Made by a program: the position numbers and the translations under genes
From: Leptolyngbya boryana PCC 6306
GTDB lineage: Bacteria > Cyanobacteriota > Cyanobacteriia > Leptolyngbyales > Leptolyngbyaceae
Assembly (NCBI RefSeq): GCF_000353285.1
Contig: NZ_KB731324.1
Location: 1,506,577 to 1,570,576, forward strand
Length of the DNA stretch: 64,000 nucleotides
Reading direction: 5' to 3'
Part shown: positions 9,132-33,650 of the stretch, piece after piece
How positions within the stretch are numbered: position 1 is the stretch's first letter
How the letters are laid out: every line of letters begins with the position of its first letter
Notes under the pieces: model-generated
What the model saw: only the letters and a program-made list of their open reading frames with translations
The model's database searches: none
Told to the model about the DNA's origin: nothing

Positions 9132-9620
9132 TTATGCAAGTGCGTTAATGATGTAGTCGATGTAGGAGTTTGCTTCCAGTGCAGGGTCACCGCTCAAGCC
9201 ATGGTTTGCTTTGATGTAGCGAAGCGCTTCAGCATACCAAGCAGGAACCAATTCAAAACGGCTGTGCATTTCAGCCAAACCTGCCAACAGATACTCATCT
9301 GCAGGTCCAGTTCCACCTGCGATTAAGCAGTATTGGATCATCCGAATATAGTAACCGATGTCACGCAAGCATTTTGCTTTACCGCGTGCGTCGGAAGCAT
9401 AATTCGCACCCTGCATTTGGGTGGTGTAGGGGAATTTTTGGTATACAGCGTTTGCTGCACCTTGAGCGAGTGAATCTGCTTTGTCACCCAAAGCTTTTGC
9501 AGCTTCGAGATCAGCGGTTGCCAAGCGGAGGCGACCGAAAGCGATTTGCAGCTCGGTGTTACCGAGGAAACGACCTTGTGAATCAGCAGCAGCAACTGCT
9601 TCTGTCAATTGTGTTTTCAT
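9132..9620 (-). CDS. cpcA: Phycocyanin alpha subunit
   Basis: 162 residues, the family's normal length, if started at the ATG at 9620; a longer frame to 9656 adds 12 residues unlike any CpcA, and GGAG lies correctly before 9620. The phycocyanobilin-binding C84 is in [12 protein letters not shown], and the classic [20 protein letters not shown] and [11 protein letters not shown] stretches are present. It pairs with CpcB to make the alpha-beta monomer of rod hexamers. Several normally conserved positions differ (for example [13 protein letters not shown] and [13 protein letters not shown]), so it may be one of several cpcA copies. It is not PecA-like enough to call phycoerythrocyanin. Confidence 0.95.
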
Positions 9621-9700
9621 TGGATTCTTTCTCCGTAGTGTTGTAGAAGTTTTCAAACTAAAGCGAGTGCGATGAATCGCATCGCCGAGAATTGAGGGAG

Positions 9701-10219
9701 TTAGCTGATCGCAGCAGCAGCACGATCGAAGTAGCTGCTCAATTCAGCAATCAAAGAGCTACAATCACCCGGTTGGATATTGTTGCGATCGTTGGCAATT
9801 GCGATCGCAGCTTCTTTCATTTTGACGATGCTGTTCGCCATTGAAGAGGTCGGAACGCCCAAAGCAATGTAGGTTTCACGCAGACCATTCAAGCAGCGAT
9901 CGTCGAGCACGCTTGCATCACCCAAGAAGACTGCATAGGTAACGTAGCGCAGAACGATTTCCATATCGCGCATACAAGCTGCAACACGACGGTTGGTGTA
10001 AGCATTTCCACCAGGAGCAATCAATTGAGGCTGTTCTTCAAACAATGCCCGTGCTGCATTCGTAACGATCGTCGAAGCGCTACCTGTGATTCTGTTCACA
10101 ACATCGGTGCGCTTTGCACCGTCTTTTACGACTGCCAAGAGAGCGTCGATTTGTGCGCCACTGACGAGCTGACCTTGTGTATCAGCCTGTGAAACGACCT
10201 TAGTAAAGGCATCTAGCAT
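9701..10219 (-). CDS. cpcB: Phycocyanin beta subunit
   Basis: 172 residues, the canonical length. Both bilin-binding cysteines are present, C82 ([10 protein letters not shown]) and C153 (PGDCSSL), as are N72 (GGNAY, the residue usually methylated) and the C109 segment [13 protein letters not shown]. It is first in the minus-strand operon, 80 bases before cpcA, with GGAGATTGAATCA before the ATG. The chromophore lyase genes cpcE/F that often follow are not in this window and must be elsewhere. Confidence 0.96.
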
Positions 10220-20487: not shown

Positions 20488-20583
20488 TCTCCCTATCGGT
20501 TCTGTTGAGTGGCGGCAAGTATGACTGAAACGAAGCGAGGAGAATTTTTTGCCGCTCTAACAGAATGGTTAGCTGGCTAGCCA

Positions 20584-20988
20584 CTAGGATTTTGGATTGA
20601 CTTCAAACTCCATCTTGGAGCGGTAGAAGCAAACATCAAATTCAAGAAAGAAGTTTGTCTGTCCCAAGATTAACGGAGTGTTTGGGCGCTTCACCCATGC
20701 GAAGAGTAATTCAACGGGTTGAAATTCACCGATTTGGGCAATCGCAGAAAAAGGCATCGCTGGCTGATTACTGAGATTCCCTGCTAACTGAATAATGGCT
20801 CTGCGATCGTCCCAAACTCCCCCCAATTGAAGACCGAGTTCATAGGATAAGACATTAACTGTTGCTCCGCTATCTACGAGACCGACTGCTTCAACGCTCC
20901 GAGCTTCTCGATGTAACATTAATGGAAGTCTCGGCAAACTATCAAACTCATTTTGAACTGGACTGTTGGTTGAATATTTGAATCGCAT
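20584..20988 (-). CDS. Retropepsin-like aspartic protease domain protein
   Basis: 134 residues. The single-domain aspartic protease hallmark VGLVDSGATVNVLS is near residues 35-48, followed by a hydrophobic segment with PLILGQTNFFLEFDVCF near the C-terminus, as in retropepsin-like (gag-asp) proteases. Such a chain would act as a dimer. It overlaps nothing and starts 3 bases after the stop of the small upstream gene, so the two are an operon. No signal peptide. Confidence 0.8.
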   Translation of the reverse strand: MRFKYSTNSPVQNEFDSLPRLPLMLHREARSVEAVGLVDSGATVNVLSYELGLQLGGVWDDRRAIIQLAGNLSNQPAMPFSAIAQIGEFQPVELLFAWVKRPNTPLILGQTNFFLEFDVCFYRSKMEFEVNPKS

Positions 20989-20991
20989 ACA

Positions 20992-21207
20992 CTATTGCTG
21001 ACTTGCATCTGGCTGCTTGAAAGCCTCCATCAAAACTGCACCCGCGCCATAGCAATCATATGGAGTTGGCAAGTCATAGGTTTTGAAGGGTTCTAATGGC
21101 CCAAGCTGCTCAGTCATCTCCAAATCCTCAGCTAGAATCCGAATCAGCTTAAGTTTTTCTGCGGCAGAGAGTCGTCTTGCATCAGGAAGCAAATCAGCTA
21201 ATGTCAT
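20992..21207 (-). CDS. Small conserved hypothetical protein, partner of the protease-like gene
   Basis: 71 residues beginning TLADLLPDARRLSAAEKLKLIRILAEDL, a helical segment that resembles the short N-terminal parts of antitoxin-like proteins. The second half is proline/tyrosine-rich without motif. It precedes the protease-like gene with 3 bases between them. Toxin-antitoxin behaviour is possible but not shown. Confidence 0.65.
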   Translation of the reverse strand: MTLADLLPDARRLSAAEKLKLIRILAEDLEMTEQLGPLEPFKTYDLPTPYDCYGAGAVLMEAFKQPDASQQ

Positions 21208-21512
21208 GTCGTGTACCTCTTTTCAAGCAATCACACTTACAGCTTACTCGATATCAAACTGACCAGAAGACACGCCTTGGCTTGCTAGTACGCGAATGCT
21301 ATATCCTGATCGTCCATAAATCCGCCCACTCAACGATTCAAATGATACATTCTTATGCCAACTATGTACGCAAGCAACTTGATCTTCATATCTAACTCTG
21401 CATTTCCAAATAACGCCCCTACCAACTAGAACGAAGCCAGCTAACAAATTGATTATGGTGAACGACTAGTGCGCTAAACTTGAGCCTGTATCACATCTGG
21501 AATAGTTGAGTT
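21208..21512. other. Intergenic stretch with one doubtful open frame
   Basis: 305 bases between divergent genes. A minus-strand frame at 21244-21447 could code 67 residues with no recognisable domain; I do not count it as a gene. Both neighbours need promoters here. No repeat or RNA gene seen. Confidence 0.4.
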
Positions 21513-30844: not shown

Positions 30845-31528
30845 ATGCGTATTTTAGTCGTTGAAGATGACCAGCATTTAGCAGAGATTCTCACCGAAAC
30901 TCTGAGCGATCGCGCTTACTCAGTAGATGTTGTAAAAGATGGTGAGTCTGCCTGGGATTGGCTAAATTCTTTGGTATATGACCTGATCGTCTTGGATGTT
31001 ACCCTCCCTAAATTAGATGGCATTAGCTTATGCAAACGTCTACGAGGAGCACTCAATGAGAATGGAACGACCCCGGTCTTAATGTTGACCGCACGAGATA
31101 CGATCGCCGACAAAATCTTAGGACTTGATGCTGGTGCAGATGATTACATGGTCAAGCCTTTTGATATTGAGGAACTAATGGCGCGAGTTCGTGCTTTACT
31201 TCGGCGCGGAACCAGTAGCCCAAATCCGACCTTGATCTGGGGCGACTTACAAATCGATTCAAGTACTTATGAAGTCAATTATGCCAATGCACCGCTGACG
31301 CTCACCCCGAAAGAGTATGCGTTGTTAGAGTTGCTTGTCTCTAGTGGACGAAAGGTACTGAGCCGCTCAGGAATTATCGATCGGCTTTGGTCACTTCAAG
31401 ATCCACCCACTGAAGAAACGGTCAAATCTCACATCAAAAGTTTGCGCCAAAAGCTCAGAAATGCAGGTGCGCCTGAAGATTTGATTGAAACTGTTCACGG
31501 AGTAGGATATCGATTGAAACAACTCTAG
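30845..31528 (+). CDS. OmpR/PhoB-type response regulator
   Basis: 227 residues. The receiver (1-120) has VEDD, the phospho-acceptor D51 in YDLIVLDVTLP, T in MLTARD and K in MVKPFD. The C-terminal winged-helix domain (about 130-227) has LTPKEYALLELL and EETVKSHIKSLRQKLRNAG...GVGYRL. It is the likely partner of the CHASE3 kinase that is transcribed away from it. Confidence 0.95.
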   Translation: MRILVVEDDQHLAEILTETLSDRAYSVDVVKDGESAWDWLNSLVYDLIVLDVTLPKLDGISLCKRLRGALNENGTTPVLMLTARDTIADKILGLDAGADDYMVKPFDIEELMARVRALLRRGTSSPNPTLIWGDLQIDSSTYEVNYANAPLTLTPKEYALLELLVSSGRKVLSRSGIIDRLWSLQDPPTEETVKSHIKSLRQKLRNAGAPEDLIETVHGVGYRLKQL

Positions 31529-32070
31529 GAATGTCTTGAACTGGCTGCGCAAACAGTGCGTGTGTGAGTTCTTACAGATGATATGACCAATTTAGTGAAG
31601 GGCGATAGCAGTTTTGTCGATCGTCTTTTTTGCTGTTTGTTTGTCGTTACTGCTCGGTCTAATCAGGTGAAGTTGGATCGTAGGCAGACGAAGACTTGCT
31701 TTCTTCGAGAAGAAATACTTAAATTTTCTGTCTAATCTGCTTCTAAGGGGTATCATACCGAACATCGGTCGATCTAATATTCCAAAGGTCCGAATTAGGC
31801 AGAAGCAGTCAAGCTAACTCCCCAATCTAGAGTGTTATACCGGCTCTCAGCAGCCTAAATCGCTCCAGAGGAATGTTATGCTGACTGTCTTCGGGCTAAC
31901 AGGTGATTAGACGGAAAGAGTCAGGCTAAACAATTGTTGGGCAGTATTTCTTTACGTAGTGGAGGGCAAGTAGATCCAAGTTTTCTAGGTGGCTGGCTAG
32001 GATTTTCAAAACCACGTTTCAAGACTTAAAGCGGTTAAGCTTTATAAAACTAGAACCTGAAAGTCAATTT
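31529..32070. other. Long non-coding stretch before the integron-type cassette
   Basis: 542 bases with no convincing gene on either strand. A weak hairpin-plus-T region follows the response regulator (about 31608-31632). Short motifs recur: CTAAT/ATTAG-type blocks (31657, 31731, 31754, 31916) and CTAAC/CTAAA blocks (31813, 31895, 31925). CTGCTTCT (31737-31744) can pair with AGAAGCAG (31801-31808). Two GTTRRRY cores are present, at 31936-31942 and 32034-32040, the second 30 bases before the cassette ATG. I recognise no known RNA family. Confidence 0.5.
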
Positions 32071-32760
32071 ATGGTTGAATTTAAGTGGGAATTGCTTCTT
32101 GATATTATAAGAACAGCTTGCACGGTCGGTACATTCTTTATAGCTATTAGTGCTTTTAGAATCTTTCTTAAAAATAAGCTTGCTGAGAAGCAATTAGATT
32201 TAGTGATTGAATTGATTAGAGAAATATCTGACTCTAAATTAATAGTTGTTTATCGACTTGATCCTCAACAAGCGTCAGAGATGATGAAACGCGGAGTCGC
32301 AGGTGAGATAACTCCTCAATTATCTTTATTTGGCATTGCCTCTGATGTTTCAAAAGAAAACTCTCCGTTGTTCTTACGTCAGGATGTCTGTGATCACCTG
32401 ACCTCAATTAGTAGACAATATTCAGAAAATCCCTTGCTTCCTACAAAAATTGCCTTCTCTTTACGTCAAATTGTGCCTCGTCCTAAGGGTTTAGTGGTTA
32501 AGGCAAACCAGGCTGGCTATGTATTTGATCTTTGTGAAATACCTAAAAATTCAGTTATTTATTTAGCTCAAAATTTAGAGAACTTCGATAACAAAGGGAT
32601 AATATCGGCGTTCTCTACTTATGGTGAATTTGTGACAGTATGTAGAGACTTAGTTATATCTATAGAGATTTGGCTAAGTAAGTACGGAATTAAGGATGTC
32701 AATGCATTGCGAGGGGGTAGTCGTAAGTCCACAGAAAAGAGCAGCCCAACAAGGCGATAA
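32071..32760 (+). CDS. Orphan membrane-anchored protein encoded by an integron-type cassette
   Basis: 229 residues. One membrane helix (about 11-33, IIRTACTVGTFFIAISAFRIFL), then a charged helix and a soluble domain with no motif I recognise. Base composition is AT-rich with many AGA/ATA codons and no GCGATCGC octamer, unlike its neighbours. The stop codon lies inside the attC site, the usual layout of integron gene cassettes. No promoter or good RBS is evident. Function unknown; transfer from elsewhere is likely. Confidence 0.75.
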   Translation: MVEFKWELLLDIIRTACTVGTFFIAISAFRIFLKNKLAEKQLDLVIELIREISDSKLIVVYRLDPQQASEMMKRGVAGEITPQLSLFGIASDVSKENSPLFLRQDVCDHLTSISRQYSENPLLPTKIAFSLRQIVPRPKGLVVKANQAGYVFDLCEIPKNSVIYLAQNLENFDNKGIISAFSTYGEFVTVCRDLVISIEIWLSKYGIKDVNALRGGSRKSTEKSSPTRR

Positions 32761-32829
32761 AGCGGACGTGTTCAACTTTGTAGTTGAGTTGCAAAGGTTG
32801 TTTTCCGCTGCTTATCTTGGTCGTTAGAC
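32744..32829 (+). other. Integron attC recombination site
   Basis: 86 bases bounded by R'' GCCCAAC (32744-32750) and R' GTTAGAC (32823-32829), both matching the RYYYAAC/GTTRRRY cores. Between them the arms pair imperfectly in the attC way: AAG with CTT, ATAA with TTAT and GCGGA with TCCGC, with small bulges, and an inner stem TCAACT/AGTTGA closes the loop. Length, core sequences and the ORF stop inside the site all fit. No integrase gene or second clear attC is in the window. Confidence 0.82.
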
Positions 32830-32953
32830 TGCTGAATTTCGGTTAGGACACAACTTGAAACTTGTCCATGTTCTAAGCAACGATTTTCAATTACTCCCGC
32901 AGTTTTAACTACATAGGAAGATATAATTCCGTGCGGTCAAATTTCTGATTCCT

Positions 32954-33331
32954 ATGCCATCGAATAACTCTGAGTCGCAAGCTCAAGCCCGAAGAATTTT
33001 AGATGCGATCGCCTTTATCCCTTTTGAGCAGTGCCAACTACTAAGCCGTGAGTTTAATAGTCTTCCTGCACGTCCCGGTATTTATGCGATTCGGCACAAA
33101 AACGATGGGTTGCTTTATGTCGGTAAAACGAAAAGTTTACGAGGTCGCTTTAGCGGTGGGCACAAAGCTTTTTTATAGGCTTGGCTTGACAAATACAATG
33201 ACGAGGAAGTTCGGATTGCGGCACAGGTTATTTCTCATTGGGAGAACCCCACGTTACTATTGGAGCTAGAAGCCATAATTCTAAGAGCCACTGAACCCCC
33301 TTACAACGCCCAGATCCCGACTGAAAGGTGA
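32954..33331 (+). pseudogene. GIY-YIG nuclease gene interrupted by one TAG codon
   Basis: The frame starts at ATG 32954 and codes a GIY-YIG domain (PGIYAIRHKNDGLLYVGKTKSLRGRF, catalytic R in RGRF). It meets TAG at 33176-33178 and then continues open in the same frame to TGA at 33329-33331, coding the rest of the domain with the catalytic glutamate in LLELEAIILRATEPPYN. Relatives usually have W at the stop position (AFLWAWLD), so TGG to TAG is the simplest change. The product is truncated at 74 residues unless the codon is read through. The next small gene follows after 4 bases. Confidence 0.85.
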
Positions 33332-33335
33332 TGCC

Positions 33336-33542
33336 ATGCAAGCCAAACTTCAAGAGAGACTTTCTCCCGCCGATGCAGAGGTGATTTTAGGACGGTTGCC
33401 TGAGCGGATTCGTGCTGCTCTCATGACGCGTGCTGCTGAAATTGAATATCCAATCGAAGCAGTAGTTGAAATGGCGATCGCAAGCTTTCTTGATTCAGAA
33501 GCGTTGGGTTTTGCAGATTGTAAACCAGGGCGCGGTCAGTAG
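33336..33542 (+). CDS. Small conserved protein paired with the GIY-YIG gene
   Basis: 68 residues, LQERLSPADAEVILGRLPERIRAALMTRAAEIEYPIEAVVEMAIASFLD, predicted helical, acidic. I recall such short genes directly behind GIY-YIG genes in cyanobacteria but not a name. It begins 4 bases after the stop of the broken nuclease gene, so the two were an operon. Its own reading frame is intact. Confidence 0.7.
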   Translation: MQAKLQERLSPADAEVILGRLPERIRAALMTRAAEIEYPIEAVVEMAIASFLDSEALGFADCKPGRGQ

Positions 33543-33650
33543 CGTATTTTGGTTGATGCTTGCATGGGCTAACAATTCAAATACAACGGACAGCCCGAAA
33601 GGCTTTCTGCTCTATTCTCAGTCTTCCGCCTATTGGCACTGAATCTGCTG

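Follow-up and report, generated by a model that had tools for sequence, protein, structure and literature searches.

The window, by which we mean the whole 64-kb stretch of Leptolyngbya boryana DNA that was analyzed, carries on its forward strand a leader remnant (31613-31674) followed by an attI platform of ~265 bp that belongs to a dispersed family (31675-31936), and then by an integrated gene cassette of 887 bp (31937-32823) that closes with an attC site (32744-32829), the recombinogenic strand of which would be the bottom strand. The cassette ORF (32071-32760) encodes a 229-aa protein with an N-terminal hydrophobic helix and has its TAA stop codon (32758-32760) inside the attC site, and it is AT-rich (36.8% GC versus 46.5% for the window), in agreement with an earlier reading made from the sequence alone. 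That reading also called the product a membrane-anchored protein of unknown function, and this is consistent with our results, membrane anchoring being predicted from the one N-terminal hydrophobic helix. The protein has no Pfam or PADLOC family match, searches of plasmids and viral contigs gave no relative, its one clear remote relative (29% identity) is in a genome of another cyanobacterial family (G173), and its predicted structure is unusable (mean pLDDT 34).

The sequence-only reading had placed an 86-bp attC site with R'' and R' cores at 32744-32829. Folding the bottom strand, which it proposed as a check, reproduced the inner stem with a z-score of only -1.8, and this evidence is by itself weak. 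Because folding of a single site is weak, 14 other attC candidates from L. boryana and related Leptolyngbya genomes were aligned and a covariance model was built from them, with the window site left out. Compensatory changes were found in 12 of the 21 pairs of this training alignment and the bulged extrahelical bases typical of attC are present. A hand-made attC scanner with relaxed cores gave too many chance matches and served only to seed the model. The model scores the window site at 46 bits (E 7.4e-12), below the best attC sites, and the site is one of only two matches in the 64 kb (E ≤ 10). There was no match to it in Rfam and, when examined as a possible unrelated dispersed repeat, the 86-bp sequence proved not to be one. 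The stretch from 32744 to 32829 is therefore, as judged from its covariation and cores, a genuine attC.

The boundaries of the cassette follow from the cores. The R'' box GCCCAAC (32744-32750) is the exact reverse complement of GTTGGGC at 31936-31942, as a G|TT crossover predicts, so that the cassette extends from 31937 to 32823, and the R' core GTTAGAC (32823-32829) would contain, by the integron crossover rule, the displaced right half of attI (32824-32829). The window element has the features of an integron gene cassette, namely a 3' attC with R'' and R' cores, a conserved folded stem, and an R'' complementary to the cassette's own left core, and in this the proposal of a cassette ending in a well-formed attC is borne out. 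The left boundary originally suggested, GTTAAGC at 32034-32040 (giving 32034-32829), had to be abandoned, as it mismatches R'', lies 98 bp inside the cassette, and is one of 139 GTTRRRY motifs in the window.

The same rule was examined at attI platforms in four genomes, where 36 successive boundaries of cassettes were followed, with attC placed by the covariance model. R'' is the exact reverse complement of the preceding junction in 19 of the 36 and has at most one mismatch in 29, compared with maxima of 10 and 21, respectively, in 20,000 permutations. Since 14 sites had trained the model, some of them found by means of the boundary rule, the test was repeated on the 23 others, where nine were exact and 16 within one mismatch (p < 1e-5). 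Cassette boundaries follow the integron rule far above chance. The 17 boundaries that lack an exact match could result from drift, undetected cassettes, or old deletions. One cassette of genome G020 also occurs in G022, where the homology starts exactly at the boundary and the neighbor differs, which is good evidence that cassettes can move as units.

The attI core sits 808 bp upstream of the window attC. The simple site, GGCTAAAC-AATT-GTTGGGC (31924-31942), has its G|TT crossover at 31936/31937; the family copies can be aligned as far as a conserved end, GTCTAAAYAATWGTT, with their homology ending exactly at GTT, and are divergent beyond it. Both the simple site and the two attC cores are intact at the window locus. 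The assignment as attI comes from homology to repeats that adjoin intI: in six relatives (G018, G022, G023, G009, G027, and G038) the repeat adjoins an intI gene (intact or nearly so) and points away from it, at 57-60 bp from the HMM-matched intI start in the first five and near intI in G038, and in L. boryana itself the copy at C1:5091370 likewise begins beside intI. No intI adjoins attI at the window locus. Homology to the intI-linked copy of G018 continues for 62 bp beyond the attI start on its upstream side and then ends, and this leader remnant (31613-31674), left over from the segment that separates intI from attI where a copy is complete, contains no recognizable intI coding sequence. 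A scan of the + strand from 31500 to 32050, limited to the sigma-70 consensus, gave no promoter match; that attI supplies a promoter for expression is an assumption. In a related copy (L047:6814-7083), dyads (TTATGCCGAC...TCGGTCTAAC) are spaced ~40-41 bp apart across ~270 bp, unlike in the short class 1 attI, and they are possibly an array of putative IntI binding sites.

The claim that no integrase is present holds for the window, where there is no match to IntI anywhere in the 64 kb, but not for the genome, which has a single intact IntI at C1:5090369-5091355, 3.55 Mb from the window element. This protein matches TIGR02249 at 470 bits (cut-off 265), aligns end to end with Vibrio cholerae IntI4 (2a3v; E 3e-88), and retains both the tyrosine-recombinase catalytic residues and the IntI-specific region. 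The dN/dS values of 0.02-0.03 within the genus (three pairs with measurable dS) indicate that intI is under strong purifying selection there. IntI scores above the cut-off in 28 of the 42 genomes of the family, and in G019 and G020, which have several attI copies, nothing matched intI at E ≤ 1e-60. In the intact integron, the first cassette (L009:9562-9727) is gene-less and only 166 bp long, with an attC-like sequence at 9620-9733 (34 bits).

An attI is normally regarded as a single site per integron that lies beside intI. The L. boryana genome has ten attI copies of ~190-276 bp, one with the intact intI, one with 64 intI codons, and eight without intI, together with two attI fragments. Nor is the cassette isolated, as had been thought, since apart from its own attI there are at least 25 attC sites in the genome, a second one of which is in the window (20491-20574). 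The genome-wide search for intI and further attC that had been recommended has yielded the one intact IntI, these attC sites, and arrays of one to four cassettes; the attI copies at C1:2004816 and C1:2204240 are each followed by three attC, that at C1:3536486 by two, and the others by one. All eight genomes of the genus have attC sites at many loci (11-44 per genome). Complete copies have ~1000 bp upstream of attI in common, corresponding to the intI gene, while all 21 integrase-less copies have at most 209 bp in common, and mostly less than 80 bp, with differing breakpoints. This short and variably broken homology suggests that intI was lost repeatedly while attI was retained. The attI core and dyads are conserved across the integrase-less copies, in which the intI sequence is eroded, a pattern that favors continued use but could also reflect youth.

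Individual copies vary in their state. The one at L015:4312-4709, where the 64 intI codons remain, shares 92% identity with the intI-linked attI region and is most probably a platform that was recently duplicated and truncated. An attI and its cassette are found as one unit with 89% identity in both G019 and G023 (L106:8836-9978 and L120:3060-4200) with unrelated flanks, and the integrase-less platform may itself be mobile. Several genomic attC sites, among them the second one in the window, have no detectable attI.

Given that attI, cassette, and attC are all present and intI is locally absent, we propose that the window element represents an integron with one cassette from which the integrase gene has been lost, and we put the probability of this at about 0.9. 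In the established mechanism, IntI recombines attI, as double-stranded DNA, with the bottom strand of attC in its folded form (reviewed in PMC8946536). By such a reaction an integron integrase would have inserted the cassette at the window attI, and the enzyme would have been either a local IntI, still encoded there at the time, or the single intact IntI acting in trans from 3.55 Mb away. This locus would be one of about ten scattered attI platforms, most of which have kept attI and cassettes and lost intI. Were the cassette excised, the empty junction would be CTAAACAATT-GTTAGAC, that is, the left half of attI joined to 32823-32829.

Within this reading, we consider it an even question whether the element is a dead relic, a decayed integron whose intI was lost long ago and whose attI and attC are no longer used. 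The absence of intI at the window locus would fit such decay, as would the sub-maximal score of the window attC and the visible degradation of other copies, which includes an internal deletion (L046b), a degenerate R' (L045), and the two fragments (L048 and L050). Against this stand the intact attI simple site and attC cores, the conservation of attI dyads and core in copies where intI has eroded, and the persistence of one intact IntI under purifying selection. The presence of about ten related sites and a single intact enzyme gene suggests that one enzyme could serve many sites, and the distant IntI may act in trans on the dispersed attI sites. A further and distinctly tentative extension, which we favor less than its opposite, is that of a distributed integron, where one chromosomal IntI (or a foreign one) would serve the ten or so attI platforms in trans, cassettes would be captured and expressed at many loci rather than in one array, and attI would be kept by selection without an integrase of its own.

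It is very improbable that IntI inserted the cassette in trans at a random, attG-like genomic site and that the dispersed repeat upstream of it is unrelated. The repeat does form a dispersed family, there are the attC sites without detectable attI, and, according to PMC12901181 and PMC11023631, which cite Loot et al. 2024, cassettes can be inserted at attG sites. However, the repeat occupies the attI position beside intI in six relatives and in L. boryana, and its homology stops exactly at the crossover in many copies. The attG insertions, as far as they are described in the papers citing them, resemble the present case in that cassettes lie far from the integrase gene, and differ in that insertion here is at attI homologues rather than at non-classical genomic sites. 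A chance hairpin closing an orphan gene, with no integron involved, might be suspected from the z-score of -1.8 and the commonness of GTTRRRY, but it is refuted by the boundary test and opposed by the covariance-model score and the adjacent attI, and we give it practically no weight.

The integron lacking its integrase gene that we propose can be compared with several known systems. Like the sedentary chromosomal integron of V. cholerae (IntIA/IntI4), the Leptolyngbya system has an integrase of the IntI family, an attI with a G|TT crossover beside intI, attC sites with R''/R' and bulged bases, and cassettes that end in attC; it differs in that the window locus has no intI, the arrays hold only 1-4 cassettes, and the attI family, at ~265 bp with dyads ~40 bp apart, has about ten members in one chromosome. 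CALIN elements (PMC8618304; PMC9024848), for which an origin by trans insertion or by intI loss has been proposed (PMC8618304), likewise consist of attC-bearing cassettes with no intI nearby. The window element nevertheless has a full attI, which is outside the CALIN definition, and a single attC, where at least two clustered attC are called for (PMC9024848). Retention of attC after intI loss is also seen in Treponema phagedenis, at a single locus there, versus a dispersed family of attI platforms in Leptolyngbya; integrons are usually said to have one attI each (PMC3607928).

Earlier work has already recorded integrons in Cyanobacteria (PMC8618304; PMC2426708; PMC8352920), contrary to the view that they are little documented: they are listed for the phylum in the first two of these, and a cyanobacterial attC model exists in the third. 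In a literature search of incomplete coverage, mostly without subscription papers, we came across no description of attI platforms that are dispersed and lack an integrase, and the family is apparently undescribed. The defaults of IntegronFinder 2.0 require at least two attC per CALIN and attI is not searched outside class 1, where it is poorly described (PMC9024848). Hence, with its one attC and non-class-1 attI, the window element would not be reported, and the number of such elements may be underestimated. To find more of them, the attI consensus and attC model from this analysis can be used. A genus with many integrase-less attI and rule-obeying cassettes makes the action of an integron integrase in trans on dispersed chromosomal targets testable.

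The second cassette in the window (20491-21445, - strand) has an attC at 20491-20574 (31.5 bits, E 3.6e-7). Its left core GTTAGCT at 21445 matches the R'' AGCTAAC, and its R' is a degenerate GATAGGG. As there is no adjoining attI homologue, this cassette may represent an insertion of the attG type. Within it lie the gene for a 134-aa protein that matches the PADLOC candidate PDC-M52B (E 2e-41) and a 71-aa ORF. Downstream of the first cassette lies an ORF with a GIY-YIG domain (32954-33332, + strand) that has an in-frame TAG at 33176-33178, with the frame continuing to 33332, and related sequence occurs in relatives at other loci. No empty or alternative version of the window locus was found; in G022 the syntenic slot, which has the response regulator gene on one side and the aminotransferase gene on the other (C128, L149; window 31529-33647), carries an unrelated gene pair, an apparent PIN-type toxin-antitoxin, in place of attI, cassette, and GIY-YIG. 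As its content differs between the two genomes, this slot may be an insertion hotspot. At another chromosomal place, L050 (C1:532000-543000), pieces of both window elements occur together, with a fragment of attI, a copy of GIY-YIG, and a paralogue of the protein matching PDC-M52B all within ~5 kb.
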